Shown: one piece after another, positions 10,229 through 52,634 of the stretch | Layout of the letters: each line of letters opens with the position of its first letter | Numbering within the stretch: the stretch's first letter is position 1 | Assembly: GCA_009692615.1 (NCBI GenBank) | Contig: SHYW01000027.1 | Span: 1-52,765, forward strand | Length of the DNA stretch: 52,765 bases | Direction of reading: 5' to 3' | From: Deltaproteobacteria bacterium | GTDB taxonomy: Bacteria > Desulfobacterota > Binatia > UBA9968 | Position numbers and translations under genes: made by a program | Notes under the pieces: generated by a model | The model's input: the letters and a program-made list of their open reading frames with translations, nothing else | Database searches by the model: none | What the model was told of the DNA's origin: nothing

Positions 10229-11248
10229 CTAAAACAGTACGCTCTTCAACTTCGCCAACACCGCTGGGTCGAGGTTGAAAATCGCGTCGACGGTTTTCTT
10301 CATATCCTCGGCGGTGACGGGTGCTAAGCCGAGACGAGCTTTTTCCGCTTCGGCGATGAACTCGGGATCTCTGACCGTCTCTTGCAAAGCTTTTTGCAGT
10401 AGCTGGGCGCGATCGAGCGGCGTGCCCGGCGGCAGCGCGAGAGTCTTGGTGATCTTGCTCGGAAAGTGAATGCCGATTTCGATCAGCTGCTTGGCTTCCG
10501 CTGTCTTCGCTAGATCGATGGCCAAGGGAACCTTGGGCAAATCGGCGAACGGTTTGGGCACGGTTTGCAGCACGATACCGACCACGCCTGTCTCTAACGA
10601 TTTTTGCCAGGCGCCGCGCATGGTGTCCCAGCCCCAAGTGGTGCCGTCGATCTCGCCGCTCTCGGCGGCCAGCCGCATGTCGGCGGTGCCTTTGTAACCG
10701 GAAATAATTTGGATCGGCAAGTTCAACGCCGCTTTGATCACCTTGATGACGTTGTCGGTGCCGAAGGCGCCCGGCCCGGTGGTGCCCATCTTCACCGGCG
10801 TTTTCGCTGCGAACCATTTTTCCATGCTCGAAATGCCGCTCGCTTTGGTGAGCGCGATGGCGCTCTCGTCGCGCGCGGCGGCGCCGACGTAAACGAATTT
10901 CTTCATATCGAGAGCGATGCCCGGCTGTCCGGTCGCTTGGCTGAAAGCGAAGCCGCCGCTGAAGTGGCCCATGGTCAAACCGTCGGGCTTGGCGACTTTG
11001 TAAAGATGATTGGCCGCCAGCAAACTGCCGGCGCCGGCCATGTTGTCGACCAAAAACGTCGGATGGCCGGGAATGTATTTACCCATATGGCGCGACAGCA
11101 TTCTTGCCAAGGCGTCGTAACCGCCGCCGGGCGAGTAGCCGACGATGATGCGAATGGTTTTGCCCTGATAGTAGTCGGATTGCGCGTCAACGTTGCCGAC
11201 TAGAATTCCCAGCGCCAAGAGAACTTGACTGAAAATGTTTTTGCTCAT
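10229..11248 (-). CDS. Bug/TctC-family tripartite tricarboxylate binding protein
   Basis: 339 aa from the ATG at 11248 (GAGG 11 bases upstream; an in-frame TTG at 11269 is less likely). Signal peptide of about 22 residues ending VDAQ. Family features of PF03401: GKTIRIIVGYSPGGGYDALARML, the membrane-distal loop FLVDNMAGAGSLLAANHLY, KPDGLTMG, and YKGTADMRLAAESGE in the ligand-contact region. It ends with the family-typical LDPAVLAKLKSVL. Such proteins bind carboxylated compounds in the periplasm and normally deliver them to TctA/TctB; neither is present here. It lies between the LLM enzyme and the aldo/keto reductase in one leftward cluster. Confidence 0.93.
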   Translation of the reverse strand: MSKNIFSQVLLALGILVGNVDAQSDYYQGKTIRIIVGYSPGGGYDALARMLSRHMGKYIPGHPTFLVDNMAGAGSLLAANHLYKVAKPDGLTMGHFSGGFAFSQATGQPGIALDMKKFVYVGAAARDESAIALTKASGISSMEKWFAAKTPVKMGTTGPGAFGTDNVIKVIKAALNLPIQIISGYKGTADMRLAAESGEIDGTTWGWDTMRGAWQKSLETGVVGIVLQTVPKPFADLPKVPLAIDLAKTAEAKQLIEIGIHFPSKITKTLALPPGTPLDRAQLLQKALQETVRDPEFIAEAEKARLGLAPVTAEDMKKTVDAIFNLDPAVLAKLKSVLF

Positions 11249-11285
11249 GACAAATATCCTCAAGGACAATTTAGACTTGCAGCCG

Positions 11286-12233
11286 TCAATAATTTCCCGT
11301 CAGCGAATTCAAATTGCCGAACACTTCAATCAAACGCTGGCGCACCGGTGCGGGCAAGGCGGGCCGCAGCAGCGATTCGACATTAGCTTTGAGATGGGCT
11401 GGATTGCCTGTGCCGGTGAGCACGCTGTCGACTCCCGTCTCGTGACGGCAAAAGCGATAGGCGCCGTCTTGGATCGAAGTCGCGCCGCCTTCGTTGAGCA
11501 AAAAATCCAGCGGTGCGTCGGCGTTCACGGCATCGGCCGCAAGGGCGCCTTTGGCGATCAGCTCGGCGCAGAGTTTTTTCAAACGCTCCGGCTGACTCAA
11601 GGCGCGGCGCAGCGCGTAGCTGACCAGCACTCCAACGTCGTTCGCCTTGGCCAGCGGCAAGATGTTTTTGCGCGCGCAGGGATTGAGCAGGTTGAAGCCG
11701 ACCATGATCACGTCCCAGACATTGTCGCGCAGCGCCTGTTCGAGCATGGTGTGCAAAGAGTCGACGACGAAACGCTCGGTGATGCCGAGCGCGCGAATCT
11801 TGCCTTCGTCTCGCAAACGCAACATGGTTGGCAGGTGGCGCTCCACGGCGTTGCGATAATCCTTCGGCTCGGCGCCATGAACATGGTAGACATCGACATA
11901 ATCGGTGCCGAGATTTTTCAAGCTCTGTTCGAGCGAACGGCGAATCTCGCCGGCGGGATCGCCATGATCCTCAGGCACGATATTTTTCTTGGTCGAGATC
12001 ACCAGCCGGTCGCGCGCCACGCCGGCAATCGCCTTGCCGACGACGGCCTCGGTGCCGTACCACTCCGCCGTGTCGAAAAAATTAATTCCTAGATCGATGG
12101 CGCCACGCACATGGGCGACGACATCGTTTTCGCTTTTGTTTTTGTCCTTGAGCCCCAAGCGGCTCGGCCCGCCGCAGCCCAAGCCGGCGATGCTGACTTT
12201 CAACTTTGTCCGACCTAGCGTTGTGTATTCCAT
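11286..12233 (-). CDS. Aldo/keto reductase
   Basis: 315 aa TIM-barrel oxidoreductase (PF00248). The catalytic tetrad can be placed: D54 and Y59 in FFDTAEWYG, K82 in ISTKKN, and H119 in DVYHVHG. NADPH is the usual cofactor, and carbonyl groups of small organic molecules are the usual substrates. An insert with two cysteines (FNLLNPCARKN) and the C-terminal SVLTGTGNPAHLKANVESL match the dehydrogenase-like AKR branch. No ribosome-binding site stands out. The gene starts 27 bases after the stop of the NMT1-type binding protein, so they are probably one transcript. Confidence 0.92.
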   Translation of the reverse strand: MEYTTLGRTKLKVSIAGLGCGGPSRLGLKDKNKSENDVVAHVRGAIDLGINFFDTAEWYGTEAVVGKAIAGVARDRLVISTKKNIVPEDHGDPAGEIRRSLEQSLKNLGTDYVDVYHVHGAEPKDYRNAVERHLPTMLRLRDEGKIRALGITERFVVDSLHTMLEQALRDNVWDVIMVGFNLLNPCARKNILPLAKANDVGVLVSYALRRALSQPERLKKLCAELIAKGALAADAVNADAPLDFLLNEGGATSIQDGAYRFCRHETGVDSVLTGTGNPAHLKANVESLLRPALPAPVRQRLIEVFGNLNSLTGNY

Positions 12234-12260: not shown

Positions 12261-13253
12261 CTAGCGCAATCCTTCGCCGGCGTTGCGCGCCATGGTGAAG
12301 TCGAAAACCCGCTCCGGTGCGATCTGCGGCGGCGGTTTGACGCGCTGGGCTGCGGTCGCGATCATCTCGCGCTGCAATTTTTCATCGATGATGCCGGTGA
12401 GCGAGTAGCCTTGCACGGCCGCTTCGTAGGCGCGTTCGGCAAATCGTTCGCGTTCCTTGCCGAGCTCGACGTAGTTTTTTTGGATCAGCGTTTCGACGGC
12501 ATAGCGCTTGTCGTTTTTTAACAAGCGTAGGGCGCGCAGCGTGGCGCGGATGACTTTGGTCACGACTTCGGGTTTCTCGCTGAGCAGCGCTTTGGTCACG
12601 GCGAGTCCGCCTTGCACGGCGCGGTAGTAGTCGCCGCCCGAGGCGACTTTTCGAAAGCCCTCGTCCTGGGCGACGAAGGTATTCGGTATCTGCAACATCA
12701 CCGCGTCGATGACGCCAGCGCGCAACGACATATACGACACGTCGCCACCACCCAGCGATAAGAATGTAACCTGGTCGACGGGAATTTGATTCGCCAACAA
12801 GATTTGCCGGATGATTAACTCAGGTAAGCCGCCGACGCCGCCGAAGCCGATGCGCTTGCCGCGCAGTTGGGAGATACTCGCGATGCTGGCGTGGCCCATT
12901 AAATCGAAAGAGGGCCGCTCGCTCATCGCCATGACGACGCGCACGTCGGCGCCGTTGACCGCGGCGCTGAGCGCGGTGCCCGTGGCAGTGCCGAAATCAA
13001 TGCTGCCGCCGAGCGTCGCCTGTACGGTTAGACTAGCTTTGAAAAGAATGATCTCGGCGTCGATGCCTTCGTCGCGAAAAAAACCGCGCTCGCGCGCCAC
13101 CCAAAATGGCAAGTCGAGGGTGCCGCGCGAGACTACGGCGATGCGGATAGGAATGAGTTTCACCGATTTCTCCGCGGCGCATACTCGGGCAGCGACAGGG
13201 CTGGTTGCGATGATGCAAATTAATAGCAGCGACAGGCGCGCGACGCGATTCAT
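12261..13253 (-). CDS. NMT1/SsuA-type substrate-binding protein
   Basis: 330 aa with a signal peptide (LSLLLICIIATSPVAARVCAA). The mature part begins with a beta strand followed by GTLDLPFWVARERGFFRDEGIDAE-type sequence (an NMT1/THI5-like hallmark), then the hinge region LRGKRIGFGGVGG. Members are periplasmic binding proteins for ABC importers of nitrate, sulfonates, taurine, thiamine precursors or aromatic acids; the ligand is not predictable. Unlike the other nine NMT1-type proteins here, it lacks the C-terminal D-x-(S/R)-(I/F)-(V/I)-x-x-L-E signature and ends in FDFTMARNAGEGLR. No permease or ATPase gene is adjacent. It is the first gene of the leftward cluster down to 9065. Confidence 0.92.
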   Translation of the reverse strand: MNRVARLSLLLICIIATSPVAARVCAAEKSVKLIPIRIAVVSRGTLDLPFWVARERGFFRDEGIDAEIILFKASLTVQATLGGSIDFGTATGTALSAAVNGADVRVVMAMSERPSFDLMGHASIASISQLRGKRIGFGGVGGLPELIIRQILLANQIPVDQVTFLSLGGGDVSYMSLRAGVIDAVMLQIPNTFVAQDEGFRKVASGGDYYRAVQGGLAVTKALLSEKPEVVTKVIRATLRALRLLKNDKRYAVETLIQKNYVELGKERERFAERAYEAAVQGYSLTGIIDEKLQREMIATAAQRVKPPPQIAPERVFDFTMARNAGEGLR

Positions 13254-15835: not shown

Positions 15836-15952
15836 TAAGGCCGAGGTCGGTTTTTCGTGCCGCGCCAAGCGCCACTTTCGTTCTTGATCCAACATTGATA
15901 TGCACTCCAACAGTTCGAGTGCCGCGCCGCTCAATCTCGCTAGGGGGTGCTT

Positions 15953-16996
15953 ATGTTACCGCTTGCCACTTCGAGGAAAATTTTTTCGCTTTGGCTATTT
16001 TTGCTAGTTGCCTGCGCACTCGCCGCGCCGCTTGGCGATATTCCGTTTAGCCACGGCGCTAGCGCGCCGACGCGGGTAACCATCGCTTATCCCAGTCCGA
16101 GCCCGCGCGTCGCGCCGCTGTGGGTGGCGCAGGATTTGGATTTCTTCGGCAAGTACGGCATCCGCGCGCAGACCGTGCTGGTACGCAATAACCAAATGCT
16201 CACCGCCGGCCTCGCCGCCGGCGATCTCGATGTCGGCTACACCGGCGGCACCACCGTGCTGCAAGCCGCGCTGGCGGGCGTGGAACTTAAAATGATCGCC
16301 AACCTCGTCACCCGCGGCAGAGGCTATCTATTGGTCCGATCGGATATCAAGAAAGCCGCTGACTTGGCCGGCAAGCGGATCGGCGTGCAGAGCATTGGTG
16401 GGACCATCTGGATGTACGTCATCCTTGCCCTCGAGCAGCTCGGCGTCGACGTGGCGCGCGACAAAATTCGTCTGCTCGTCATCGGCGACCAAACCGTCAC
16501 CGTCCGCGCGCTGGAAACCCAGGTGATCGACGCGGCGGTATTCACTTCACGGACTTATATTCCGAGCCTACAGCAAAAAGGGTTTGCCATTTTGACCGAC
16601 GTCTACCCCGCCATGGCGGCCACCGGCATCGTCACGCGCAAGAGTCATTTGGAAAAAAACCCAGCGATGATCGAGAATGTCGCCAAAGCGCTGATCGAAG
16701 GGGAATTCTTTGCTCTGGCGCAGAGCAACAAAGCTTTGACCGTCAAATCGATCATGAGTCATCTAAAACTCTCCGATCCGACGTCAGCCGAGGAAGGCTA
16801 CGGTGAATTGGCCAAGGAGCTCGATACCAAACCCTATCCGTCCATCGATGGATTGAAAAACATGCAGCGGCTGATGGCGATGCAAAATCCCAAACTCAAC
16901 GACGTCAACCCAGCCAATCTGATGGACGGTTCGATCTTGCGCAAACTCGAAGACAGCGGATTTCTTGCCCAGATGGCGGCGCGCTATCGGGAGTGA
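15953..16996 (+). CDS. NMT1/SsuA-type substrate-binding protein
   Basis: 347 aa from the ATG at 15953, preceded by AGGGGG; a GTG two codons earlier is the alternative. Signal peptide core LWLFLLVACALAAP. The mature protein has the NMT1 features RVAPLWVAQDLDFFGKYGI, then LAGKRIGVQSIGGTIWMYV at the hinge, and ends with NLMDGSILRKLEDSGFLAQM, the C-terminal signature shared by most NMT1-type proteins in this window. Expected in the periplasm binding a small organic or sulfur/nitrogen compound. A VOC-type gene follows 34 bases downstream and is probably co-transcribed. No importer membrane genes are adjacent. Confidence 0.92.
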   Translation: MLPLATSRKIFSLWLFLLVACALAAPLGDIPFSHGASAPTRVTIAYPSPSPRVAPLWVAQDLDFFGKYGIRAQTVLVRNNQMLTAGLAAGDLDVGYTGGTTVLQAALAGVELKMIANLVTRGRGYLLVRSDIKKAADLAGKRIGVQSIGGTIWMYVILALEQLGVDVARDKIRLLVIGDQTVTVRALETQVIDAAVFTSRTYIPSLQQKGFAILTDVYPAMAATGIVTRKSHLEKNPAMIENVAKALIEGEFFALAQSNKALTVKSIMSHLKLSDPTSAEEGYGELAKELDTKPYPSIDGLKNMQRLMAMQNPKLNDVNPANLMDGSILRKLEDSGFLAQMAARYRE

Positions 16997-17030
16997 ATGG
17001 CGGCGCTATTTAATTTTTTTTTGGGAAACT

Positions 17031-17888
17031 ATGTTGGAATATGCGAATGAAGATGTCGGCAACATCGTGTTGTTGGAACATGTCAACTTGCAGGTTCCCG
17101 ACCAAGCGTTGGCGACGCTCTTTTACATGGTCGGCCTCGGTTTGACTCGCGATCCCTATTTCAACATCGGCGTGCGCAACATGTGGGCCAATGCCGGCGA
17201 GCAGCAGTTTCATTTGCCGATCCGGCCGACGCAGGTCCTGCATGGTCACATCGGTGTCGTCCTGCCGGACCTCGATTCTCTCAAAGAGCGCTTGGCTTCA
17301 GTGGAAGAGCCGCTGGCTCAGACGAAATTCTCTTGGTCGGCGCAGGCCGATCATATCGCCGTCACTTGCCCGTGGGGAAATCGTTTTCGTTGCCACGCCG
17401 CCAGCCCAAGCTTTGGCGACATGGCGCTGGGCATTCCCAACGTCGAGTTTCTCGTCGAGCGCGATCGCGCCGCGGCGATCGCGCGTTTTTACGATCAAGT
17501 GTTGATGGCGCCGGCAAAAGTGGAAACCAGCGATGCGGGTGCGGTCGCGCGGGTGAAAATCGGCCGCCATCAAGCGCTGGTCTTTCGAGAATCCAACGAA
17601 CCGTGGCCCGACTATGACGGCCACCACATCGCGATTTACGTATCAAAGTTTTCTCGTCCCTACGATTTTCTCAAACACCGCGGCCTAATCAGCGAAGAGG
17701 TGCGCAATCATCAATTTCGCTTCAAACAACTGGTCGACCCGACCAACGATCAGGCGATTTTTCTCGTCGAGCATGAAGTGCGCAGTTTGCATCATCCGAT
17801 GTATCGCCGCGTGATGGTCAATCGCGATCCCAACGAGTCGGCGCGCCGCTACCGGCGCGGCCGCGACGATTTGAATCCGTACAATTAA
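17031..17888 (+). CDS. VOC-family (glyoxalase/dioxygenase fold) protein
   Basis: 285 aa from the ATG at 17031. Two VOC modules are visible. The first begins VLLEHVNLQVPDQALATLFY (about 13-32). The second begins ALGIPNVEFLVERDRAAAIARFYDQVL, and contains a central GHHIAIYVSKF and a late QAIFLVEHEVRSLHHP. The family includes metal-dependent glyoxalases, extradiol dioxygenases and resistance proteins. Metal ligands are incompletely conserved in the first module, so activity is uncertain. The C-terminal RRYRRGRDDLNPYN is basic. It follows a binding protein gene by 34 bases, a pairing of transport and enzyme genes seen several times in this window. Confidence 0.75.
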   Translation: MLEYANEDVGNIVLLEHVNLQVPDQALATLFYMVGLGLTRDPYFNIGVRNMWANAGEQQFHLPIRPTQVLHGHIGVVLPDLDSLKERLASVEEPLAQTKFSWSAQADHIAVTCPWGNRFRCHAASPSFGDMALGIPNVEFLVERDRAAAIARFYDQVLMAPAKVETSDAGAVARVKIGRHQALVFRESNEPWPDYDGHHIAIYVSKFSRPYDFLKHRGLISEEVRNHQFRFKQLVDPTNDQAIFLVEHEVRSLHHPMYRRVMVNRDPNESARRYRRGRDDLNPYN

Positions 17889-17999: not shown

Positions 18000-18072
18000 G
18001 CAAGATAAATTGAACGGCATGCATATCGATACTAAAGCCGGTAGAGCCACACTAAATTCATACGGACGCTTT

Positions 18073-19134
18073 ATGAAATCATCCATCGCATGGTTCGGTT
18101 TACTGATCGCGTTACTCAACGTTACTACCGTCGCGGCGCAATCCGCCGGCGATATTTTAAAGACCTACGAGACGCTGGGGAAATCCGACAAGCGCGCGCG
18201 GTTGATCGACGGCGCCAAGAAAGAAGGCCGTTTCGTTTTCTACGGTACCTTGGGCGTCGATGCCGCGGCGCCGATGCTGGAAAAGTTTCGCCAAGCGCAT
18301 TCGTATCTCACCATCGGCCATTACCGCGGCAACGGCTCGGGGCTGTTTAACAAAGTCGTCACCGAAGCGCGCGGCAGCAAGTTCGAAGCCGATGTCATCG
18401 AGATTTCCGCCGGGCCGTCGGCCGAGCTGATTCGCGCCGGCTACATCGATCCCTATCGCTCCACGGAGATTGAAACCGTGCGGCCGGAATTTCGCGACGG
18501 GAAAAATCTCTGGCATGCGTATCAATACCTGGTCGTTGCCCTTGCCTATAATAAAAATCGCGTCAAAGAATCCGAGCTACCGAAGAACTATCAAGACTTG
18601 TTGTCGCCGCGCTGGAAGGGCGGCAAGATGTCCCTCGACACGGATGACGCCGACATCTTCGCTGGGCTGCTCGACAGCTGGGGTGAAAAGCCGGGGCTCG
18701 AATATTTTCGCCGCCTGGCGAAGCAAGAACCGGTGCTGCGCAACGGCCACACGCTGCAAGCTCAACTGCTCGCCGCTGGCGAAGTCGATCTCCATCCCTG
18801 GTCCCACGCCCAACGTCCGCTCTTGATGGCCGACCGCGGCGCGCCGGTGGCGATCGAATTCATTCAGCCGGTGGTGTCGAAAGCCCAGGGTTTGCTACTA
18901 GCGAAAAAATCGCCCCATCCCCACGCCGCGGCATTGTTCATCGACTGGGCGCTGTCCGAGGAAGGGCAAACGTTTATCGGCATCGACCTAGTGCGCAGCC
19001 CGGTGCGCGCCGGCACCAAACAAAAATACACAGTGCTGGGAACACCCAAGACCAAAGTCCTCACGCCGGATTTCTTAGGCCGAGATTTCGAGCGGTATAG
19101 TAAACTGTATCGCGAGATATTTGGCGTGCGGTGA
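18073..19134 (+). CDS. Extracellular solute-binding protein (iron/spermidine-type)
   Basis: 353 aa if started at the ATG at 18073, which puts the signal peptide (MKSSIAWFGLLIALLNVTTVAAQ) at the N terminus. Upstream TTG (18010) and ATG (18019) starts are possible but would precede the signal peptide with an unusual tail. The mature part has the pattern of the class 2 (PBP2) iron- or polyamine-binding family: LIDGAKKEGRFVFYGTLG, then EADVIEISAGPSAELIRAGY and a central SPRWKGGKMSLDTDD. Ligands in this family include Fe(III), polyamines, thiamine and small organics. No ABC permease or ATPase gene accompanies it. It is monocistronic and convergent with the GNAT gene. Confidence 0.88.
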   Translation: MKSSIAWFGLLIALLNVTTVAAQSAGDILKTYETLGKSDKRARLIDGAKKEGRFVFYGTLGVDAAAPMLEKFRQAHSYLTIGHYRGNGSGLFNKVVTEARGSKFEADVIEISAGPSAELIRAGYIDPYRSTEIETVRPEFRDGKNLWHAYQYLVVALAYNKNRVKESELPKNYQDLLSPRWKGGKMSLDTDDADIFAGLLDSWGEKPGLEYFRRLAKQEPVLRNGHTLQAQLLAAGEVDLHPWSHAQRPLLMADRGAPVAIEFIQPVVSKAQGLLLAKKSPHPHAAALFIDWALSEEGQTFIGIDLVRSPVRAGTKQKYTVLGTPKTKVLTPDFLGRDFERYSKLYREIFGVR

Positions 19135-20559: not shown

Positions 20560-21549
20560 CTAAAAGCGTCCTTCGAGTTCCAGTTTCTTGACAAACCGTT
20601 CGTCGACCAACTCTTCGGCTTTCAAGGCGCGAATCTTGTCGTTGCTGGCGCCGAGAAAGCGGATGGTCGAGCGAATGCCGTCGACGTTGGGGAAAATTCT
20701 TCTCTGATACATGTTGCCGAGCCGCTCGTAGCCGCCGAGCGCATCCTCGGCGCGCGTCAGACGCAGCCCTTTGGCGATGCTCTTCAGCACCAGCGCCTTG
20801 TTCTTCGGCTCGAGCACGAAATTGACCGAGTCCGACATGGCGCGCAATAATCTCTCGACCATCTCCGGTGCGCTGCTCAAATATTTCCGCTGGGCCAACA
20901 GAGCGGTGTTCTGATAGGGGATGTTGAGTTTGGCGAGATCGGCGAGGACGCGAAAGCCTTGGCGTTCGAGCACCGACGCGAACGTGTAGTTGAAATAGGC
21001 GCCGTCGATGACTTTGTTGGGCAGCGCTTGGGCCAACAACGATTCGTCGCCGACCACGCGCAGATTGATTTTATCGCGCTGGGGTTCGAGCCCCCAGTAT
21101 TCGAAGGCGAGCATGGAGCGCATCCAGACGCCGCCGCCGATGCTGGTGACGCCGATGCTTTTGCCTTTTAAATCCGCCGGCGTTTTGACTGCCGGTATGA
21201 CGACGAAGGTGCCTTCCAATTTATGAATTAAACTAGTCACGAACACCGCGTCCATACCGCTGGCGATGGCGCCGAGCGTGGAGCCGGTGGCGGCGCCCAT
21301 GTAAAATTGCGCTTCGCCGCTCGCCAGCGCGGACAACGCTACCGCGCCGTTGCGCACATGCACCGGGCGAACGTCCAAGCCATGCTTGGAAAAAATTCCG
21401 TAATCCTGGGCGACGAACAACACAGTCTCGCGCTCGCTCAGGCTGCCGAAGGTAATCAGCAGCTGGTTCGATGGCACCGCGGCACTGGACGGCGACGCGC
21501 TGGCGAAAAACAGCAAGCACAGCACGAACATTCGCATGATCATCTTCAT
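20560..21549 (-). CDS. NMT1/SsuA-type substrate-binding protein (near-duplicate of 22914-23897)
   Basis: 329 aa from the ATG at 21549, with GGGAAG five bases upstream. An ATG five codons earlier is possible but has poor spacing. Signal peptide MFVLCLLFFASASPSSA. The mature N terminus NQLLITFGSLSERETVLFVA and long shared blocks such as ASGEAQFYMGAATGSTLGAI and RQGFRVLADLAKLNIPYQNT are almost identical to the protein at 22914-23897. It ends ELVDERFVKKLELEGRF, the shared C-terminal signature. It is separated by 313 bases from the upstream gene of the same strand, so it may have its own promoter. No importer components are nearby. Confidence 0.93.
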   Translation of the reverse strand: MKMIMRMFVLCLLFFASASPSSAAVPSNQLLITFGSLSERETVLFVAQDYGIFSKHGLDVRPVHVRNGAVALSALASGEAQFYMGAATGSTLGAIASGMDAVFVTSLIHKLEGTFVVIPAVKTPADLKGKSIGVTSIGGGVWMRSMLAFEYWGLEPQRDKINLRVVGDESLLAQALPNKVIDGAYFNYTFASVLERQGFRVLADLAKLNIPYQNTALLAQRKYLSSAPEMVERLLRAMSDSVNFVLEPKNKALVLKSIAKGLRLTRAEDALGGYERLGNMYQRRIFPNVDGIRSTIRFLGASNDKIRALKAEELVDERFVKKLELEGRF

Positions 21550-21862
21550 GGGTTCTTCCCGCATCCTGAGTTAATGAGCCTGATAGCCCGGATTATTCAC
21601 CCTACGAGGCAACATGACGACACTCTGTCGATCAAGGTGTGACTCTAGAGGAACGAAGGCATCGGCGCAATTGTTTCATTTTCTGTTCGGCGCTCGGCAC
21701 GACGGTTGAACTTTTCGCCGCTAATTTCACAGCAACTCGCCCCGCTGGCATCGGCAAGGCACAACTGCCGCAAGGCAATCGTCCGCAGAACCGCGCGCCG
21801 CAACCGACCGGGCTGTTCGCTATTGCGCTGGCAAAAGCGAAGCAGAAAAAATAACCGACGGC
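21550..21862. other. Intergenic gap without a convincing gene
   Basis: This 313-base stretch separates two leftward binding-protein genes. A rightward frame at 21639-21854 ending in FAIALAKAKQKK is open but has no clear ribosome-binding site or recognisable motif and runs against its neighbours. No palindrome of the families found elsewhere is present. It may hold the promoter of the gene at 20560-21549. Confidence 0.4.
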
Positions 21863-22913: not shown

Positions 22914-23897
22914 CTAAAACCGCCCTTCCTGTTCCAGCTTCTTGACGAACCGGTCATCGACCAAATCCTCCGGATTCAAAGCGCGAATCTTTTCGTTGCT
23001 GGGACCGAGGAAGCGAATCGTCGAACGAATGCCATCGACATTGGGGAAGATGCGCCGCTGGTACATACTGCCGAGCCGTTCGTAACCACCAACGGCATCT
23101 TCAGCGCGGGGGAGACGCAGTCCCTTGACCATACTTTGCAGCACGCGTTCCTTGTTTTTCGGATCCAGGGTAAAAGCGACGGCATCGGACATCGCCCGGA
23201 TCATGCGCTCGGTCACATCGGGTGAGCCATTGACGTATTTCCGCAGTCCCAGGAGCGCGGTGTTTTGATAGGGGATATTGAGTTTGGCAAGGTCAGCGAG
23301 CACACGGAAACCCTGGCGTTCAAGCACTGACGCAAAGGTATAATTAAAATAAGCGCCGTCGATGACTTTGTTGGGCAGCGCCTGGGCTAAGAGCGACTCA
23401 TCGCCAACGACGCGAAAGTCAATCTTGTCGCGCTGGGGCTCCAATCCCCAGTGCTCGAAGGCGAGCATGGAGCGCATCCACACGCCGCCGCCAAGACTCG
23501 TGACGCCAATATTCTTACCTCTTAGTTCCGCCGTGGTTTTGATCTTCGGTTGGACCACGAACGTGCCTTCCAAGGTGTGAATCAAGCTGGTGACAAACAC
23601 CGCGTCCATGCCGCTAGCAATGGCGCCGAGCGTCGAGCCGGTGGCCGCGCCCATATAAAACTGTGCTTCGCCGCTTACCAACGCCGACAGCGCGACGGCG
23701 CCGTTGCGCACATGCACCGCGCGCACGTCCAACCCATGTTTGGCGAAGAGGCCATGATCCTTAGCAACGAAGATCGCGGTTTCGCGCTCGCTGAGGCTGC
23801 CGAAAGTGATGAGTAATTGATTAGCAGGTGTGGCGGCATTGGCTTTTGCCGCAACCGCAGTGAGTAAAATAAAAACTGAAAGTGCTCTAAGCATCAT
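22914..23897 (-). CDS. NMT1/SsuA-type substrate-binding protein (near-duplicate of 20560-21549)
   Basis: 327 aa from the first of two adjacent ATGs (23897), preceded by GAGGAGAG. Signal peptide LSVFILLTAVAAKANAA. It matches the protein at 20560-21549 almost throughout (NQLLITFGSLSERETAIFVA, GMDAVFVTSLIHTLEGTFVV, RRIFPNVDGIRSTIRFLG), with the same C terminus in the form DLVDDRFVKKLEQEGRF. It is more distantly similar to the protein at 51627-52634. As first gene of the leftward group it probably carries the promoter; the 221-base gap upstream also holds a divergent candidate promoter for the cupin gene. Confidence 0.93.
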   Translation of the reverse strand: MMLRALSVFILLTAVAAKANAATPANQLLITFGSLSERETAIFVAKDHGLFAKHGLDVRAVHVRNGAVALSALVSGEAQFYMGAATGSTLGAIASGMDAVFVTSLIHTLEGTFVVQPKIKTTAELRGKNIGVTSLGGGVWMRSMLAFEHWGLEPQRDKIDFRVVGDESLLAQALPNKVIDGAYFNYTFASVLERQGFRVLADLAKLNIPYQNTALLGLRKYVNGSPDVTERMIRAMSDAVAFTLDPKNKERVLQSMVKGLRLPRAEDAVGGYERLGSMYQRRIFPNVDGIRSTIRFLGPSNEKIRALNPEDLVDDRFVKKLEQEGRF

Positions 23898-24035
23898 CGC
23901 CGTTCTCTCCTCAAAATTGTCCCCGATGCCATGGCTGAACCTCAGCGGAAACATAACACAGAGCATAGCTTCAAGGAACAAACACCAATGATAGCGTGCT
24001 TTGACCAAGCTTCGCTTATCGCACCGTCGAAAGAT

Positions 24036-28769: not shown

Positions 28770-28835
28770 CACTAGTTTCTCTAGTCACGAATAAAGTTCA
28801 AACCGTTTGAACTTGCGAACACGGTTTGAACGGGT

Positions 28836-31706: not shown

Positions 31707-31725
31707 TGTTCCTCCTTTCGCACAT

Positions 31726-31754
31726 GTAAGGGCGGGTTTCAAACCCGCTCCTAC
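31726..31754. repeat. Short GGGCGGGT palindrome
   Basis: GTAAGGGCGGGTTT and AAACCCGCTCCTAC form a 14-base near-perfect palindrome of the GTAGGGGC class, just upstream of the amidohydrolase gene. Confidence 0.8.
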
Positions 31755-33770: not shown

Positions 33771-33856
33771 GTTGTCCCCCATCAATTCACTGAAAACCTA
33801 CTACAACTTCCCGCCGTGTTCCACCGCCATCCGTATAGCCGCAAGGTGAAATGAGC

Positions 33857-38131: not shown

Positions 38132-39280
38132 CTAAATCCCAAACAGCCGGCGTGCGTTGGCGCCGAGAATATTTTGCCGGACCTGGTCGGGCAGCGGCAG
38201 CATTTGTTCTTCGATTACCGTTTGCGAATTGGGCCAAGTGCTTGCCGGATGCGGATAGTCGGAGCCGAACATGACTTTGTCGGCGTCGAGCACGGTGCCG
38301 ACCATTTTCACGCCGAGGGGATCGTCGACGAAGCTGATCCAAATTTGCCGGTGAAAATATTCGCTCGGCAAAAGTTTCGGCAATGCGATCGGCGCGTTGC
38401 CGGTGAGCCGGCGGCCGTCGCGGGTGCGCTGATACCAAATGTCGAGGCCCTGGATCATGCTCGGCACCCAGGCGAGTCCGGCTTCGGCCATGACGATTTT
38501 TACCCGCGGATGACGGTCGAGGACGCCGGTGAAAATCAATCCGGTGAGCGGTTCGAGCAGCTGCATGCCGGGCGGCTCTTGGGCGTAGCGCGACGCGGTG
38601 GAGACGACGAGATTGGTAATTTCTTGACTGGAATCGGTGAGCCGAGTTTTTTTGACTAACACGGCGAGATGAAATCCGATGGGCACGTTCACCTCTTCGG
38701 CCAACGACCAGAACGGCTCCCAAGCTTTGTCATAAACCGGCGGCGTTGCCCGCGAGGCAAGAATGTTGACGTGGCGCAAGTCGCCGCGTTTGGCGAGCCG
38801 TTCGAGTTCGTCGCGCGCGGCCAATGGATCGTCGAGGGAAAGTTGCGGCACGCCGATTAGCCGCTCGGGCTTCGCTGCGCAGAATTCCGCCAACCAGTCG
38901 TTGTAGGCTTCGTTGCAGCACCGTCTGAGTTCCGCGTCGGCGACCGGCATCGGATCGGTGGGGCCATACATCACCGACATGTCGGCGCCGTCGCGGTCCA
39001 TGTCGGTCAAGCGTAGTTCCGCCGTGGTTGGACGGATCTCGCCTTGACGCATCACGCCGCCGCGCTCGATGGCCCACATGGCGCCGCTGCCCTGGGCCGC
39101 GGTGTAATAGCCGTGGGGGCTAAAAATGTTACCTTCCCAAGTCCAGTAGAATCCATTGTCCTTTTCGACCACCCGCGGGCCGCGCTCGCGCAGGCGCGCC
39201 GGCAATCGTTCGCTCCATAATTCCTTCGGCAGCCAGCGCAGATCGATGTGATCGTCGGCGGAGATAAATCGGTGCATCAT
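38132..39280 (-). CDS. Amidohydrolase-family enzyme (third copy)
   Basis: 382 aa, longer than the other two family members here. N-terminal FISADDHIDL carries the first metal ligands, the middle has VNVPIGFHLAVLVKK with the conserved histidine, and the end has VMFGSDYPHPASTWP with the catalytic aspartate. An additional segment around EKDNGFYWTWEGNIFSPHG is typical of a distinct subgroup often annotated as amidohydrolase 2. Decarboxylation or hydrolysis of an aromatic acid is the likely role. It is leftward and separated by a CACGAAG palindrome from the binding protein gene behind it. Confidence 0.92.
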   Translation of the reverse strand: MMHRFISADDHIDLRWLPKELWSERLPARLRERGPRVVEKDNGFYWTWEGNIFSPHGYYTAAQGSGAMWAIERGGVMRQGEIRPTTAELRLTDMDRDGADMSVMYGPTDPMPVADAELRRCCNEAYNDWLAEFCAAKPERLIGVPQLSLDDPLAARDELERLAKRGDLRHVNILASRATPPVYDKAWEPFWSLAEEVNVPIGFHLAVLVKKTRLTDSSQEITNLVVSTASRYAQEPPGMQLLEPLTGLIFTGVLDRHPRVKIVMAEAGLAWVPSMIQGLDIWYQRTRDGRRLTGNAPIALPKLLPSEYFHRQIWISFVDDPLGVKMVGTVLDADKVMFGSDYPHPASTWPNSQTVIEEQMLPLPDQVRQNILGANARRLFGI

Positions 39281-40610: not shown

Positions 40611-41585
40611 TCAGCGCTTCTTGTAAAGCTTGTCGACAAATCCTTCGCGCACCAGTCGGTCGACGATGGAATTATCGGCGACGGTTTCCACGGCGATAGG
40701 TTTTTTACCCATGAACTCGACGATCGGCGCGATCGCTTCCGCTTCGAGGCGCGGCACGCGATCGAGGAACTTCACTGAGTCGCTGTACAGCTCTTCGATC
40801 AATTTTTGATCTTTGAGGCGGGTATATTTTTGAATCACCTTGAGGGCTTTGTCTTTCTGCTCGTGGGCGGCGGCGACGCCTTCGAGGTAGCCGCGCACGA
40901 AGGCGTCGAGGGTTTCCGGGTTGCGCTTTTGAAAGTCGCGCGACACGGTGATCACCACGTTGGAGTAGAGAAAGTCGAGCTCGGACAGGTCAAGCAGCAT
41001 ACGCATGGGCGCGTTGACGCGTAGCGCCGAGATCACCGCGCCGGCGATCTGCCGGTGCAGAAACGCCGCCGCTGTCTCCGTGGTGCCGCCGAACTGGCGC
41101 ACAATGACCGTGCCTTCGAGGTTTTTCTTGCGCAGCAAGATGCGCGTCATGTTGTCGTTCACCGAGCCGAAGCGCGACACGCCCAAAGTTTTGGCGCGCA
41201 ATTCTTCGACGCGGGTAATTTCCGGCTGCACCCACAGACGATAGTAAGGCCGGTTGATCAAACTCATAATCGACACCAGCGGCGCGCCGCCCAACACCGC
41301 CGCGATCACCGCATTGGTGGCGGCGAAGCCGCCTTGCAGATCGCCGCCGAGCAGCGCCTGCACCACCACCGGCCCGGAAGAAATAAAAATCAGATCGGCG
41401 TCGATGCCATATTTTTCAAAGGCGCCGATCTCCTTGGCCATCCACAAGCCGGTGCCCGCCGGGCCAACGGTGGAATAGCCGAGGCGAAACTTCTTTAGCT
41501 CGGCTGCGTCGGCGGTGATCGCGAAGAATAAAATCGCCAGCGTGTTCAGTAGCGCGCGGGCAACCTGGTGTTGTCGATGTTTCAT
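40611..41585 (-). CDS. NMT1/SsuA-type substrate-binding protein
   Basis: 324 aa from the ATG at 41585; the frame is open further upstream but without a signal peptide at its start. Signal peptide ALLNTLAILFFAITADAA. Features: FRLGYSTVGPAGTGLWMAKE, VEELRAKTLGVSRFGSVND, RQFGGTTETAAAFLHRQIAG, and the C-terminal NSIVDRLVREGFVDKLYKKR, a shifted form of the shared signature. It diverges from the ABC ATPase gene at 41717, so the 131-base gap probably holds two promoters. Confidence 0.9.
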   Translation of the reverse strand: MKHRQHQVARALLNTLAILFFAITADAAELKKFRLGYSTVGPAGTGLWMAKEIGAFEKYGIDADLIFISSGPVVVQALLGGDLQGGFAATNAVIAAVLGGAPLVSIMSLINRPYYRLWVQPEITRVEELRAKTLGVSRFGSVNDNMTRILLRKKNLEGTVIVRQFGGTTETAAAFLHRQIAGAVISALRVNAPMRMLLDLSELDFLYSNVVITVSRDFQKRNPETLDAFVRGYLEGVAAAHEQKDKALKVIQKYTRLKDQKLIEELYSDSVKFLDRVPRLEAEAIAPIVEFMGKKPIAVETVADNSIVDRLVREGFVDKLYKKR

Positions 41586-41716
41586 AGTTTTTATTGCCGG
41601 TCGATTGCTTGATCGGCATCCTAGCAAACATCCAATGGCTGTACCAAGGGAGCGCGATGGTGGTTTTTTGCTGCGGAAGCTTACAGCGGTCATGCGATTG
41701 CGTTAAGATCGCCGCG

Positions 41717-44819: not shown

Positions 44820-44972
44820 CCGATAGCGCGCATCTTCTTTATGGTCATACCTCGCGCGACCCTCCTTGACATAGAACCGATTCTAATAAAAGCATGATTG
44901 ATTCATCCACCGAAAGCTTCGAAAAAGGATTTTTCAACACCCAATTCTTGTCGGTGTAGTGGAGAGAGAAGC

Positions 44973-46103
44973 ATGCCAGCGCAGACTCATATCGCCAGAA
45001 CCATTTTGTCAGTTGCGCTCATTGGCCTGCTGCTATTCGCGACCGCCGCTTACAGCCAACAAGGTAAGGCCGCGAGCTCGGCGGAATGGGACAAGTTAGT
45101 CGAGGCGGCGCGCAAGGAAGGCAAGATCGCGATTTCACTGCCGGCCAGCGCCGAATTGAAAAAACAGATCGAAGAGCAATTTAGAAAACGTTTCGCCATC
45201 GAAGTGGAAGTTTTTACTTCGCGCGGCGCCACCGGCGTGCGCCGCATGGCGGACGAATTCAAAGCCGGCGTGCGCTATTTCGATCTGCACATCGGCGGTT
45301 CGTCGTCGATCCTCTCCGGCATGTACGACGAGGGGATTATCGATGCCATCGATCCCTGGCTGGTGCTGTCCGAAGTGCGCGATCCGAAACAATGGTGGGG
45401 CGGTCATCTATGGGTCGATAGCGCCAAACGTTTCATTTACATGTTTCAAGCCTATTTGCCGGAAAGCATTTGGTACAACAGCGATCTGGTCAAACCGAGC
45501 GAGCTACGCTCCTTCGAAGATCTTCTCAATCCCAAGTGGAAAGGCAAGATCGGCTTTCTCGATCCACGCACACCCGGCGGCGGTGACAGCCATTGGTCGT
45601 ATATGTGGCAGGTCAAGGGCGAGGACTACTTGAAGAACTTGGCGGCGCAGGATTTATTTCTCGGCCGCGATCAACGGGTGCTGTCGGAGAGTTTGGCCAA
45701 GGGACGCATCGCCGTGTTGGTCGGCAATACTTTCTATTCATTCCAGCCGTTCGTGAAAGCCGGACTGCCGGTGAAGCCGCTGCCGACTCCGAAAGAGGGA
45801 ACCTTCGGCACCGGCGGCAGCGGCAACTTAGCGATCATCAAAGCGCCGGCGCATCCCAATGCGACCAAAGTGTTCGTGAACTGGCTGCTCAGCCACGAGG
45901 GGCAGGAAGTGTTTTCCCACGGCCTAGCGCAAGCGACGAGACGTAACGACGTTGACACCAAGTGGCTGCGCGAAACCGGCACGATCGCGGCGAAGGATAC
46001 GATGTCGGTGGAAGAATTTTGGAAAGTGGAAAATCAGTCGGAAGAAAAATTTGAGAAAGTACGCAAGCCGGCGGCCAAGGCGGCGCAGACACTGTTGAAA
46101 TAG
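44973..46103 (+). CDS. Extracellular solute-binding protein (iron/spermidine-type)
   Basis: 376 aa from the ATG at 44973, preceded by GGAGAGAG. Signal peptide ILSVALIGLLLFATAAYSQ. The PBP2 pattern: EWDKLVEAARKEGKIAISLP, RYFDLHIGGSSSILSGMYDE, LNPKWKGKIGFLDPRTPGGG and APAHPNATKVFVNWLLSHEG. It is longest among the three proteins of this type. A radical SAM gene begins 56 bases downstream in the same direction, so the binding protein may supply the substrate of that pathway; this is inference. No permease is adjacent. Confidence 0.9.
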   Translation: MPAQTHIARTILSVALIGLLLFATAAYSQQGKAASSAEWDKLVEAARKEGKIAISLPASAELKKQIEEQFRKRFAIEVEVFTSRGATGVRRMADEFKAGVRYFDLHIGGSSSILSGMYDEGIIDAIDPWLVLSEVRDPKQWWGGHLWVDSAKRFIYMFQAYLPESIWYNSDLVKPSELRSFEDLLNPKWKGKIGFLDPRTPGGGDSHWSYMWQVKGEDYLKNLAAQDLFLGRDQRVLSESLAKGRIAVLVGNTFYSFQPFVKAGLPVKPLPTPKEGTFGTGGSGNLAIIKAPAHPNATKVFVNWLLSHEGQEVFSHGLAQATRRNDVDTKWLRETGTIAAKDTMSVEEFWKVENQSEEKFEKVRKPAAKAAQTLLK

Positions 46104-46159
46104 CGCGCTTGGTTTAGAATAGAATGAATAAGGCGCGGCCGCCAATGAAAGGATTGTCA

Positions 46160-48189: not shown

Positions 48190-49182
48190 TTAGCGGTAAA
48201 CACTTGCGACAAATCCACTTTGATCGAGTTGCCGGATGATACTGGCATCGACGAAGTCTTCCGGCTTGTAGTTCTTCGCCTTCGGGATTTGGCCGGAGAT
48301 CTCGTCCAATATCGGCTGAAGTCCTTCTAAGGCCGGATAAGGAGTCTTTTCATACAGCACCGAAAAAACTCTGTAGGTTTCCTCGAGTATCTCGCGATCG
48401 TTGGACCGCAACATTCTCCCCAACACTTTGATGGCAAATTCTCGATCCGTCTTGACCCGATGAATACCCTCGATGACTGCCTTGGCAAATTGCCCGAATG
48501 TTTCACGCTCCCTGCGCAATTGGCTTTCCCGCGCAACGATAACCGTCGTGGCGTATTTGAACTCCTGGCCGAGATTGGCCAGTTCGGTAAAACCGAAATT
48601 CTTCCTGCCGATGTATGCCCGCGGTGGATCGAGCACGGCCGCGTGGACGCGCCGTTTTTCTAAAGCGGCGACACTTTAGACATAGCCGCCGGTGCCGAGA
48701 AATTTGACGTCTGATTCGATGCCCCATTTTTTCAGCAACCGTTGGGTCAACAGTGTCGGTGAGCCGCCCAGGCTGCCGACACCGATCAGCTTGCCTTTGA
48801 GATCGCTCGGCCGTTTGATTTCCGGCACCGTCATGACCGAGAGCGTGAATGAGTTCAGCAGTGCCATCATGATGATGGTATCGGCGCCTTCGATGCGCGC
48901 TCTGACGGGAGTTGTTCCGGATAGGCTCGCTGCCAAGGTATCTCCGGCGTAAAGCAGCTGCACCTGGCGGGCCGCGGACTGTAGGCCGAGCAGCTCGACA
49001 TTTAGGCCGTGCTTGGCAAACAATCCGGCGTCGCGCGCCGCCCAAAGCGGCAGCTGCACCGATCCGAGACTCAATGAGATGCGCATGGGTTTTAGTTCTT
49101 GAGCCTGTATGGCGGGCAAAAATCCGCACGAGATCGCGCAGACAATCGCTAAACACATTTGTCTTGTCTTGCCCATGAACAC
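48190..49182 (-). pseudogene. NMT1/SsuA-type binding protein interrupted by one TAA codon
   Basis: From the GTG at 49182 (AGGAG upstream) a signal peptide and mature domain read to GTGGYV. A TAA at 48676-48678 then interrupts the frame, after which the same frame continues SVAALEKRRVHAAVLDPP to the C-terminal signature DFVDASIIRQLDQSGFVASV. Aligned to the intact protein at 21863-22909 (IGGQSERFAALRAGAIDAT), the stop stands where an ordinary residue is found, so a single base change such as GAA or CAA to TAA explains it. The rest is well preserved, so the loss is recent or a sequencing error. The gene lies 17 bases after the TAXI gene, in one transcript. Confidence 0.85.
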
Positions 49183-49199: not shown

Positions 49200-50147
49200 C
49201 TACTTGATAACGCCGGCCTCGGCGAAGAATTTCTCCGCCCCCGTGTGTAAGGGAATCGCCAGCCCGCGCAAGCCCGTTGCCGGCGACTCGCCGCGAAAAC
49301 CGTCGTTCATCTTTTGCAATTCAGCCATGCGCGAGTAGACGATCTTCAAGATTTGATAAACCACGTTAGGGTTGACGTCGTCACGCGCCACCAGCGGCCC
49401 GGGCAGTCCCACGGCTCGCGCGGAATAGGGGTAAGCGGGATAGTAAGTCTTGATATCGACGTCGAGATAAAGCGGCGAGCGCTTTTGCAGCGCTTGAATA
49501 CGCGCGCCATCGAGCGGAATGATCTTTAGCGTTTTTTGCTTGACCATCTCGTCGTAAGCCGGCACTGGCAGACGGGCGATGCTGAAGACGGCGTCGATTT
49601 CTTTTTTCTCGAGAGCTTGGCGCGCCTTATCGGTGTCTCCCCTGGTTGCCGTCACCTCCGCGGCGATACCGTAGACATCGAGTATCTGTTTGCCCAGCAG
49701 CGCCGAGCCGGTGCCGCCACCGTAGACGATCTTTCGCCCCGTTAAATCGGCGATGGATTGAATGTTCGAGTCGGGATGGGTGTAGATGAACAGGAGACTG
49801 AAACCGAAACTCGCGACGTGGCGGATGCGCTTTTGCGCCCGTCCCTGAAACTCTCCCGTCCCGTCGTAGGCTTCCTTGACCGATTCCGCGGTACTGGTGC
49901 CAAAAGAAGCGCGTCCTTCATTGACCGAAATCATGTTGCTCGGTCCGCCCTCGGACGGCAACGTGACCAACGTAAAATCGCTGGCGTATTGGTTCACCAA
50001 GTTGGCGAAGTAGAGCATATTCACGTAGACGCTGCTGTTGAGACCCGAAGTGTGAATTGAATATCGACCATCGGCTCCGTGCGCGGCCACGGCGCAAAGC
50101 GCTTGCAATAGAAAGCCGCACAGCGAAATATTTTTTATTGCGAGCAT
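49200..50147 (-). CDS. TAXI-family TRAP transporter solute-binding protein
   Basis: 315 aa with a signal peptide (LCGFLLQALCAVAAHGA). TAXI family (PF16868) features: YSIHTSGLNSSVYVNMLYFA, TLPSEGGPSNMISVNEGRAS with the ligand loop, DLTGRKIVYGGGTGSALLGK at the hinge, and TRGDTDKARQALEKKEIDAV. These proteins bind glutamate, 2-oxo acids or other organic acids and normally work with a fused DctQM membrane protein; none is present. The N terminus is slightly shorter than usual. It is the first gene of a leftward pair with the disrupted NMT1-type gene. Confidence 0.88.
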   Translation of the reverse strand: MLAIKNISLCGFLLQALCAVAAHGADGRYSIHTSGLNSSVYVNMLYFANLVNQYASDFTLVTLPSEGGPSNMISVNEGRASFGTSTAESVKEAYDGTGEFQGRAQKRIRHVASFGFSLLFIYTHPDSNIQSIADLTGRKIVYGGGTGSALLGKQILDVYGIAAEVTATRGDTDKARQALEKKEIDAVFSIARLPVPAYDEMVKQKTLKIIPLDGARIQALQKRSPLYLDVDIKTYYPAYPYSARAVGLPGPLVARDDVNPNVVYQILKIVYSRMAELQKMNDGFRGESPATGLRGLAIPLHTGAEKFFAEAGVIK

Positions 50148-51431: not shown

Positions 51432-51626
51432 CGGTCTGGTCGCACTCGGCCTACCAGGCGGGTTTCCTGCGCCCAGCGCTGATGACATCGCGAGACGAAC
51501 CCGCGAGGCAAACAGACGGCGCGACAACGAGTCAGATGAGGAGCGGAGTCGGCCAAGACATGGCAACTCCACAACGAACATTAGCCAACCGATCGGCCTT
51601 CGCCTGCGCCCGGCAACCTGCCCCGC

Positions 51627-52634
51627 TCATTTGAAAACCCCGTCTCGTTCGAGCTTGCGCACGATGCGCTCGTCGACGAGTGACTCGGCTTTCATGCGGC
51701 CGAACTTGGGATCGACGCGGTCGAGGATGCGCAGCGCGTTGCGCACGCCGTCAGTGGTGGGAAAGATCCGGCGGGTGTAGAGATTACGCACGGCGTCGTA
51801 GCCGGCGGCGGCATCTTCGATTTTTTGCAGTCGCAACCATTTGGCTAGGATCGCCACCACTGTCTGTTTATTGGCCGGGTCCTGGTAGTAGGCGATGGTG
51901 CGGCTCAGCGCTTTGAGCGTGCGCTCGGCGACATCGGGGGATTGATCGAGAAAAGCCTTGCGCGCGACGATGCCGATACCTTGGTAGGAAAGCTCGACGT
52001 TGGCGAAATCTTGCAGCACGCGAAAGCCTTGGCGCTGGACCAACTTGCTAAAGGTATAGCCGAGAAAAGCTGCGTCGGCGGCGCCGCTGATCAGTCCTTG
52101 AGCGATCACCGATTGATCGCCGAGGATGCGAAACTGAATCTTGTCGCGCTCAGGGTTCAATCCCCAGTGATCCAGCGCCAGCATGGAAAATGTCCAGATG
52201 CCACCGCCGATACTCTGGACGCCGAGATTTTTTCCCTTGAGATCGGCCGGCGACAAAATCTTCGGCGACGCCACGAAGTCGCCGTCCAACTTGTTGATGA
52301 TGCCGGCGATGAAAACCAGATCGAGGCCGCCGGCCATCGATCCCAGCGTCGAGCCGGTGGCCGAGGTCGTGTAGAACTGCGCTTCGTTTGCCGCCATGGC
52401 GGCCACAGCGACGGGACCATTGCGCACCTGAACAATCTGCAAGTCCAAGCCCTGCTCTTCGAAAAAATGGCGATCCTTGGCGACAAAGATAAAGCTGGTG
52501 CGCTCGTTGAAGCCGGAAAAGACGAAGACTACTTTTTGCAGCGCCGCGGCAGCGTCCACCGCATTCGCTTGAAACAAAGCGATCGCCAACGCGATGACGC
52601 CGGCCCACCGGTATAAAAAGCGCTCTTGCCGCAT
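51627..52634 (-). CDS. NMT1/SsuA-type substrate-binding protein
   Basis: 335 aa from the ATG at 52634, which follows AGGAGGG. Signal peptide YRWAGVIALAIALFQANAVDA. Features: FNERTSFIFVAKDRHFFEEQ, LKGKNLGVQSIGGGIWTFSM, RQGFRVLQDFANVELSYQGI and RRIFPTTDGVRNALRILDR. It is a third, more distant member of the subgroup formed by the proteins at 20560 and 22914, and ends SLVDERIVRKLERDGVFK with the shared signature. The upstream region runs off the window, so an operon cannot be judged. Confidence 0.93.
   Translation of the reverse strand: MRQERFLYRWAGVIALAIALFQANAVDAAAALQKVVFVFSGFNERTSFIFVAKDRHFFEEQGLDLQIVQVRNGPVAVAAMAANEAQFYTTSATGSTLGSMAGGLDLVFIAGIINKLDGDFVASPKILSPADLKGKNLGVQSIGGGIWTFSMLALDHWGLNPERDKIQFRILGDQSVIAQGLISGAADAAFLGYTFSKLVQRQGFRVLQDFANVELSYQGIGIVARKAFLDQSPDVAERTLKALSRTIAYYQDPANKQTVVAILAKWLRLQKIEDAAAGYDAVRNLYTRRIFPTTDGVRNALRILDRVDPKFGRMKAESLVDERIVRKLERDGVFK

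Follow-up and report, generated by a model that had tools for sequence, protein, structure and literature searches.

Several hundred NMT1/SsuA-type binding proteins probably share few importers in an uncultured bacterium of the Binatia

How could a bacterium make use of seventeen extracytoplasmic binding proteins that are encoded close together on a stretch of DNA offering them no importer membrane subunit? This question is raised by contig C27 of the Deltaproteobacteria bacterium assembly GCA_009692615.1, which we analysed over its entire length of 52,765 bases (hereafter the window). The contig belongs to a draft genome that totals 5,048,122 bases over 186 contigs and is rated 98.7% complete and 1.7% contaminated, and because the window is a complete contig, genes past its ends are invisible. 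Pfam scans covered 50 of the 96 window open reading frames (ORFs) of at least 120 amino acids, those omitted being mostly opposite-strand or nested frames. They identified ten binding-protein genes of the NMT1/SsuA type, one of them broken, three of the iron/spermidine type, three of the Bug/TctC type and one of the TAXI type, in agreement with a preliminary description made from the sequence. As set out below, we consider the capture of ligands by many receptors that are shared among few importers to be the best explanation, and we hold it with moderate confidence.

The absence of an importer from the window, which the preliminary description had also claimed, was borne out, and the Pfam scans of the window met no import permease. 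None of the 80 PF00528, 8 TctA and 5 DctM matches found in the genome lies on the contig, in searches that did not extend genome-wide to PF02653 (LivH/M-type), FecCD, TctB and DctQ. The TctC genes of the window, having no TctA on the contig as a partner for a tripartite tricarboxylate transporter (TTT), are thus of the orphan type, and the genome-wide DctM search placed no DctM-type subunit near the TAXI protein. A profile for TauC-type permeases likewise gave no match in the window or in nine named relative loci. The sole ATP-binding cassette (ABC) genes met in the Pfam scans form an ABC-2 exporter pair, as had been described, and two genes of the major facilitator superfamily (MFS) are present. 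Cognate permeases elsewhere on the contig were rejected as an explanation, since no PF00528, TctA or DctM match is found there.

The binding proteins of the window are part of a much larger set. A genome-wide search with PF09084 gave 479 first-look candidates; 150 of these were scored and all 150 passed, and the genome total is for this reason an estimate from an unbiased sample. The sample consists of 60 stretches picked by position only (1,078,943 bases), in which 1026 genes were called by a greedy, longest-first procedure without a trained gene finder. A profile built from the nine intact NMT1 proteins of the window recognised 105 ORFs in it, about 10% of the called genes, 99 of which match PF09084 at E 0.001 or better. 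The 96 ORFs of at least 250 amino acids correspond to 449 NMT1 genes per genome (95% interval 323-589, bootstrap over stretches), the density being 102.5 per Mb over the first 40 stretches and 50.2 over the remaining 20, taken from shorter contigs. On the basis of similar home-made profiles alone, 34 iron/spermidine-type and 7 TctC ORFs were added, so that binding proteins of all kinds account for 146 of the 1026 genes. They are unevenly spread: of 40 stretches of 20 kb, 11 carry none and four carry nine each. The window (17 of about 50 genes; binomial p = 0.00035 against the sample) is thus a rich stretch, not a unique one. Among 130 NMT1 proteins from the quarter of the genome that was read, the best paralogue has a median identity of 37.6% and none exceeds 80%, which suggests that the radiation is old.

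Several groups of such genes stand out by their arrangement. Seven NMT1 genes lie in tandem on C10 (L062), the last one cut at the end of the stretch, six iron/spermidine-type genes lie in tandem on C56 (L111), and the TctA contig C68 (L107) carries eight TctC genes, seven of them consecutive. A further family of binding proteins, PF04392 (ABC_sub_bind), stands outside the totals given above, with seven matches in the sample and six in the named relatives, some in tandem (examples are L070:11705-12721, L101:3222-4223 and L045:1092-6502).

Permeases are far fewer. Among the 80 PF00528 places, 17 genes in 13 loci are of the TauC/SsuC type according to a profile built from six, which separates them from the rest by a gap from 99.8 to 28.7 bits and covered 35 of the 38 places with an open frame of less than 450 amino acids, as well as those of the 42 long-frame places that lie in fetched loci. 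A count of binding proteins per permease across the genome, which the preliminary description had proposed, therefore sets about 450 NMT1-type proteins against 17 TauC-type permeases, and 56 TctC places (52 over the cut-off) against 8 TctA places (5 full-length). Furthermore, the two kinds of gene are rarely close. Of the 98 sampled NMT1 genes of at least 200 amino acids, one has a TauC-type permease within 5 kb and nine have any PF00528 match within that distance. Cognate permeases beside the individual proteins, which had been named as the finding that would speak against their orphan status, were therefore not found, and no gene of the window has the complete SsuABC/TauABC-type arrangement with permease and ATPase beside the binding protein.

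Because binding proteins far outnumber permeases across the genome, shared capture is the best-supported explanation, and most of the receptors probably share few transporters that are encoded elsewhere in the genome. In the mechanism that we propose, the NMT1/SsuA-type proteins would have radiated to several hundred copies while the importer permeases did not. Each orphan protein would be exported to the periplasm, where it would bind small organic ligands of a single class, and the loaded protein would then deliver its ligand to a shared TauBC/SsuBC-type ABC importer, one of a few that are encoded at other places in the genome. The enzyme encoded beside a binding-protein gene would begin the breakdown of the ligand. 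TctC-type orphans may analogously use a few TctA-containing systems.

The genes surrounding the binding-protein genes were surveyed through 129 neighbours within 400 bases that are not themselves binding-protein genes in our count; these represent 104 families, and the 25 commonest, down to two members, were listed. The commonest families are those of catabolic enzymes: Amidohydro_2 with nine genes, OCD/mu-crystallin, thiamine pyrophosphate (TPP) enzymes and Rieske proteins with five each, and luciferase-like proteins, LigXa_C, cupin, alpha/beta hydrolase and vicinal oxygen chelate (VOC) proteins with four each. PF00528 and ABC ATPases follow with three each, together with the binding-protein families PF00496 (three) and PF04392 (two). 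Amidohydro_2 genes also lie downstream of an NMT1 match in four of the nine named relative loci, directly following it among the called genes of L046, L047 and L048 and about 3 kb off in L045.

A phylogenetic tree of the 130 NMT1 proteins was calculated with FastTree, in which proteins were labelled permease-linked by a distance of at most 2.5 kb, so that some labelled genes may be orphans near a cassette. Eight proteins with TauC-type permeases (C49, C17, C84, C121, C20, C7, C33 and C95) stand outside or basal, and 107 of the 115 orphan-labelled proteins fall into clades of 85 and 28. Within these clades there are six permease-linked proteins, five in the larger (C122, C87, one from C86 and two near the C84 cassette) and one, from C20, in the smaller; another C86 protein belongs to a group of five. 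The permease-linked label changes 11 times on the tree, compared to a mean of 14.4 after shuffling (0 of 500 shuffles as low).

The cassette on C86 encodes, in this order, an 835-residue protein, TauC1, TauC2, an ATPase and three NMT1 proteins. The 835-residue protein (L102:2953-5457), directly upstream of TauC1-TauC2-ATPase, has an export-like N-terminus as judged by eye, and neither a PDB sequence search (best E 0.091) nor Pfam at lax thresholds (best 0.081) gave a convincing family. A TauC1 match of 71-83% identity is present in six of ten other family genomes, so the cassette occurs in seven of 11; a single TAG codon occurs in each of three of these matches, and ORFs of 253-306 amino acids carry the match there. 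In all six fetched stretches (L154-L159) the gene for the 835-residue protein, TauC1, TauC2 and the ATPase are kept together, the protein being conserved along its whole length in five (47-62%) and represented by a 48-residue piece at a contig end in the sixth (L154). NMT1 genes lie downstream of the cassette in four of the six (L154, L155, L156 and L159), and in L157 the contig ends soon after it. In genome G303, which has 425 NMT1 first-look candidates, no NMT1 gene was found beside the cassette in 15 kb (L158, G303:C200:23001-38000). Of all observations, this importer core, for which no accompanying NMT1 gene was found, hints most directly at partners in trans, and the C86 cassette is the leading candidate for a shared importer. 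More specifically, the divergent ABC-type binding proteins, in their hundreds, might plug interchangeably into a single conserved hub importer like that of C86, or into a few such importers, with receptor-plus-enzyme pairs widening the substrate range without new transporters and the 835-residue protein possibly serving as a periplasmic docking scaffold. We regard this more specific version as doubtful.

Several observations weigh against shared capture. We infer the sharing from numbers. The neighbour controls (140 drawn, 129 scanned, with four long proteins and the last seven left out) are also led by Amidohydro_2, with raw counts of 5 of 129 vs 9 of 129, the other control families having at most two members. 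The deep branches of the tree are weakly supported and came with long-branch warnings. G303, the case without a cassette NMT1 gene, is rated 9% contaminated, and both our own cassette and four of the six fetched cassettes carry NMT1 genes of their own. Four of the 11 family genomes, themselves still rich in NMT1 genes, lack a C86-type permease (best match at most 38%), and genomes with and without the cassette do not differ significantly in NMT1 count (Mann-Whitney p 0.41); for these two reasons the C86 importer cannot be the only shared one. Finally, the comparison of binding-protein and permease numbers across the family, described next, took all PF00528 matches and not TauC-type permeases alone.

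In that comparison, 11 sampled family genomes had 97-479 NMT1 first-look candidates and 63-123 PF00528 matches, and the two counts were not significantly correlated (Spearman -0.23, p 0.50). NMT1 richness is thus shared across the family, without permease numbers to match. A survey of 297 genomes of the phylum gave 471 first-look candidates here, 96 in another genome from this family, 221 in G035 and at most 32 in the other genomes listed, outside which stand 31 genomes without a match. G035 belongs to another family of the phylum, and its 221 candidates possibly reflect an independent expansion.

Gene order and coding constraint were followed in relatives. The nine named loci come from metagenome-assembled genomes labelled Deltaproteobacteria bacterium or Syntrophobacter sp. 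SbD2. For one of them, L044 from another assembly, the window supplies the best match to nine of the 19 called genes, at 64-90% identity; five of the nine are NMT1 genes, and the order is partly the same. Best matches here are those among the parts of our genome that were read. Two pairs are kept in L044: the NMT1 gene at 39482 with the amidohydrolase gene at 38132, and the NMT1 gene at 27774 with the TcuA-like gene. The ratio of nonsynonymous to synonymous substitutions (dN/dS) was 0.087-0.246 for seven NMT1 pairs (one partial, of 222 codons) and 0.088-0.188 for four genes that do not encode binding proteins. The NMT1 genes are under purifying selection in the pairs tested, and one of the 150 scored PF09084 places contains an internal stop. 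With the NMT1 protein at 39482 as query, 11 further family loci were obtained, and in L132, L136 (from our own genome) and L137 an amidohydrolase-like gene lies beside the match, as judged with window proteins as queries. Relatives of this protein are rare: the ten other genomes contain one match of 59% and five of 35-40%, and in four of the ten, including the other member of the same genus, there is no match at E 1e-60.

The NMT1 protein at 20563, modelled from 31 sequences with a predicted local distance difference test (pLDDT) score of 92.6, has the two-lobed fold of periplasmic binding proteins. Its closest solved structures are 3qsl, a Bordetella bronchiseptica protein (Z 29.4), and CmpA, NrtA, TauA and SsuA (Z 27-29, with TauA at 27.3). 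A hydrophobicity heuristic found an N-terminal hydrophobic segment in 93 of 103 NMT1 proteins vs 115 of 293 control genes, so most of these proteins have what appears to be an export-like N-terminus.

The orphan proteins might instead be periplasmic scavengers or buffers that hold scarce or toxic organic ligands near the cell for MFS transporters or diffusion and have no dedicated docking partner. The two MFS genes of the window and the large excess of binding proteins over the permeases searched for are in line with such a role. However, the fold of the modelled member is close to TauA, SsuA and CmpA, the purifying selection is level with that on enzymes, and the G303 importer core suggests a partner in trans; we consider scavenging unlikely.

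A role as sensors seems unlikely as well. Here the liganded forms would bind to histidine kinases or other receptors by way of the periplasmic domains of these, as AioX does. AioX is itself one of the proteins structurally related to the modelled one (Z 16.5). Such docking is also reported for BctC of Bordetella, a TctC protein whose signalling has been described (PMC5812351), and 14 of 22 kinase genes in Rhodoplanes have TctC genes close by (PMC5994714). In our genome, however, no match to methyl-accepting chemotaxis proteins (MCP), the chemoreceptors, was found genome-wide, and 29 matches to HATPase_c, which may include gyrase, MutL and similar proteins, face an estimated several hundred binding proteins; because of these two counts sensing is less likely than shared capture. 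Moreover, no regulator or kinase family is found among the 25 commonest families of the 129 neighbours, rarer families being unseen. The preliminary description had offered ligand-specific sensing or capture shared among few transporters as one explanation, of which the second part is now the best supported and the first is weakened.

It is very improbable that the orphan proteins are enzymes with a binding-protein fold, like Thi5, DszB and MqnD. These three are among the structural matches (Thi5 at Z 25), and genes for catabolic enzymes are frequent neighbours. On the other hand, Thi5, DszB and MqnD are cytosolic, whereas most of the orphan proteins are export-like at the N-terminus by the simple hydrophobicity test. 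The cysteine-rich motif that Thi5 carries is found in none of 105 proteins (96 sampled and nine from the window), and a Thi5-type enzyme was rejected on this ground.

Misassembly or decay, in which the window would join fragments or its genes would be relics of former transporters, has the one broken gene among 17 and the draft state of the genome in its favour, but is scarcely credible and was rejected as a general explanation by the gene order partly common to L044, which also answers the possibility of misassembly named beforehand, by the dN/dS values, by the intact frames and by the family-wide occurrence of the same state.

Along the window, PF09084 was over the cut-off for nine intact genes and one half gene, and matches to SBP_bac_1/6/8/11 families start at 18010, 25115 and 44898. 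The first binding-protein gene, of the TctC/Bug type, lies at 10229..11269 on the minus strand (PF03401, E 1.5e-6) and its translation begins with a hydrophobic segment. It is followed by an NMT1-type gene on the same strand at 12261..13253 (PF09084, E 9.5e-23) and by one on the plus strand at 15947..16996 (E 1.6e-17), which is partially matched (64%) at the end of L044 and overlaps the gene of a VOC/extradiol-like enzyme (16965..17888, plus strand). The latter was labelled by reading of the sequence, with no Pfam or NCBIfam match, and a single-sequence structure model of its product (16998-17885) is of low confidence (pLDDT 35.9). The next plus-strand gene, at 18010..19134, encodes an SBP_bac_6/8-type, iron/spermidine-like protein (PF13343, E 2.8e-14).

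Three NMT1-type genes then follow on the minus strand: 20560..21564 (PF09084, E 3e-17), which encodes the modelled protein and has an 84% identical relative in L044; 21863..22957 (E 2.5e-22), with a 90% match in L044; and 22914..24008 (E 5.2e-14), 79% identical in the alignment to the product of 20560-21564. The gene adjoining this group at 19805-20539 encodes an F420/NADP-oxidoreductase-like protein that, judged by eye, seems to carry an export signal; an exported Rossmann enzyme would be unusual. Also on the minus strand are an SBP_bac_6/8-type gene at 25112..26131 (PF13343, E 8.9e-17), a gene for a TcuA-like flavin adenine dinucleotide (FAD) dehydrogenase at 26183..27652 (NF006130 over the cut-off), whose 90% match lies beside the same NMT1 gene in L044, and that NMT1-type gene itself at 27774..28772 (PF09084, E 2.2e-17; 80% match in L044). 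An Amidohydrolase_2 enzyme of the cluster is encoded at 30693..31742 (minus strand; PF04909; 86% match in L044).

Two TctC/Bug-type genes lie at 32739..33785 and 33909..34937 on the minus strand (PF03401, E 5.5e-14 and 1.3e-9). On this strand they are followed by the Amidohydrolase_2 gene at 38132..39280 (PF04909), the conserved neighbour with a 77% match beside the same NMT1 gene in L044, and by two NMT1-type genes. The one at 39482..40483 matches PF13379 and PF09084 and has a 74% match in L044 and the 59% relative in another genus; that at 40611..41693 (PF09084, E 6.5e-18) has a 90% match in L052. An SBP_bac_1/PhnS-like protein is encoded on the plus strand at 44898..46103 (PF01547, E 7.7e-13; below the PhnS cut-off). 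The broken NMT1-type gene (48190..49182, minus strand) is real, as had been stated: its two ORFs, 48676-49182 and 48190-48636, match consecutive parts of the home-made NMT1 profile (positions 9-173 and 199-337 of 338), with PF09084 on the first half. It is adjacent to the gene of the TAXI-type tripartite ATP-independent periplasmic (TRAP) binding protein at 49200..50147 (minus strand; PF16868, E 6.6e-41; TIGR02122, TRAP_TAXI, over the cut-off), and a last NMT1-type gene lies at 51627..52736 on the same strand (PF09084, E 8.1e-22; 92% match in L052). As for the enzymes named in the preliminary description, the labels luciferase-like monooxygenase (LLM), amidohydrolase, VOC and TcuA-like (NF006130) were retained, while the NicX-like label at 50211 found no Pfam or NCBIfam support.

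Some other genes of the window deserve mention. Two adjacent aspartyl-protease-like genes of similar build lie at 2841-4645, the first with a weak SH3_3 match below the cut-off. A Fic protein with a DUF4172 domain at its N-terminus is encoded at 43692-44819, and a variant radical SAM gene (NF045502 over the cut-off) followed by an overlapping O-methyltransferase-like gene occupies 46124-48128.

Orphan receptors have been reported before for the TctC/Bug family, in Bordetella, Cupriavidus and Rhodoplanes, where, according to the reports, their role is still open (PMC5994714, PMC5812351). The state described here resembles these cases in that one exported family has grown to dozens or hundreds of members, has few membrane partners and is encoded both dispersed and in short arrays. 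Rhodoplanes sp. Z2-YC6860 has 434 TctC genes in 8.2 Mb, or 6.2% of its coding sequences, and 9 TctA genes, and 16% of the TctC genes have a transcription factor beside them (PMC5994714). In contrast to that genome, with its binding proteins of a secondary transporter, the bulk here is of the NMT1/SsuA (ABC) type and makes up about 10% of the called genes, and the 25 commonest neighbour families include no regulator or kinase. In Bordetella pertussis, the quinolinate binders Bug27 and Bug69 have measured ligands, are connected with metabolic genes in the genome and have been suggested to share a membrane partner (PMC11452294). The NMT1 proteins are likewise orphan receptors with proposed ligand-specific roles, a metabolic-gene link and a suggested shared partner, whereas Bug27 and Bug69, with their measured ligands, belong to the TctC family. 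With the canonical SsuABC, TauABC and ThiXYZ-type importers the NMT1 proteins share the Pfam family and the fold, and the genome has 13 TauC-type loci; unlike in those importers, the nearest TauC-type permease found is more than 5 kb away for 97 of the 98 sampled binding-protein genes. No report of an NMT1-type expansion of such size was found in the open-access literature, a search that did not cover subscription journals and preprints, and in the excerpted text of PMC9386147, on an MBNT15 bacterium, the terms 'substrate-binding' and 'solute-binding' occur 0 times.

The case described here is thus a lineage expansion of the Rhodoplanes kind, but in an ABC-type family and with a larger share of the called genes. 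Its occurrence in an ABC-type family suggests that orphan receptors are not special to TctC, and the C86 cassette provides a specific importer with which the idea of many receptors for one transporter can be tested. If shared capture is true, the substrate range of such uncultured bacteria would be unreadable from transporter counts.

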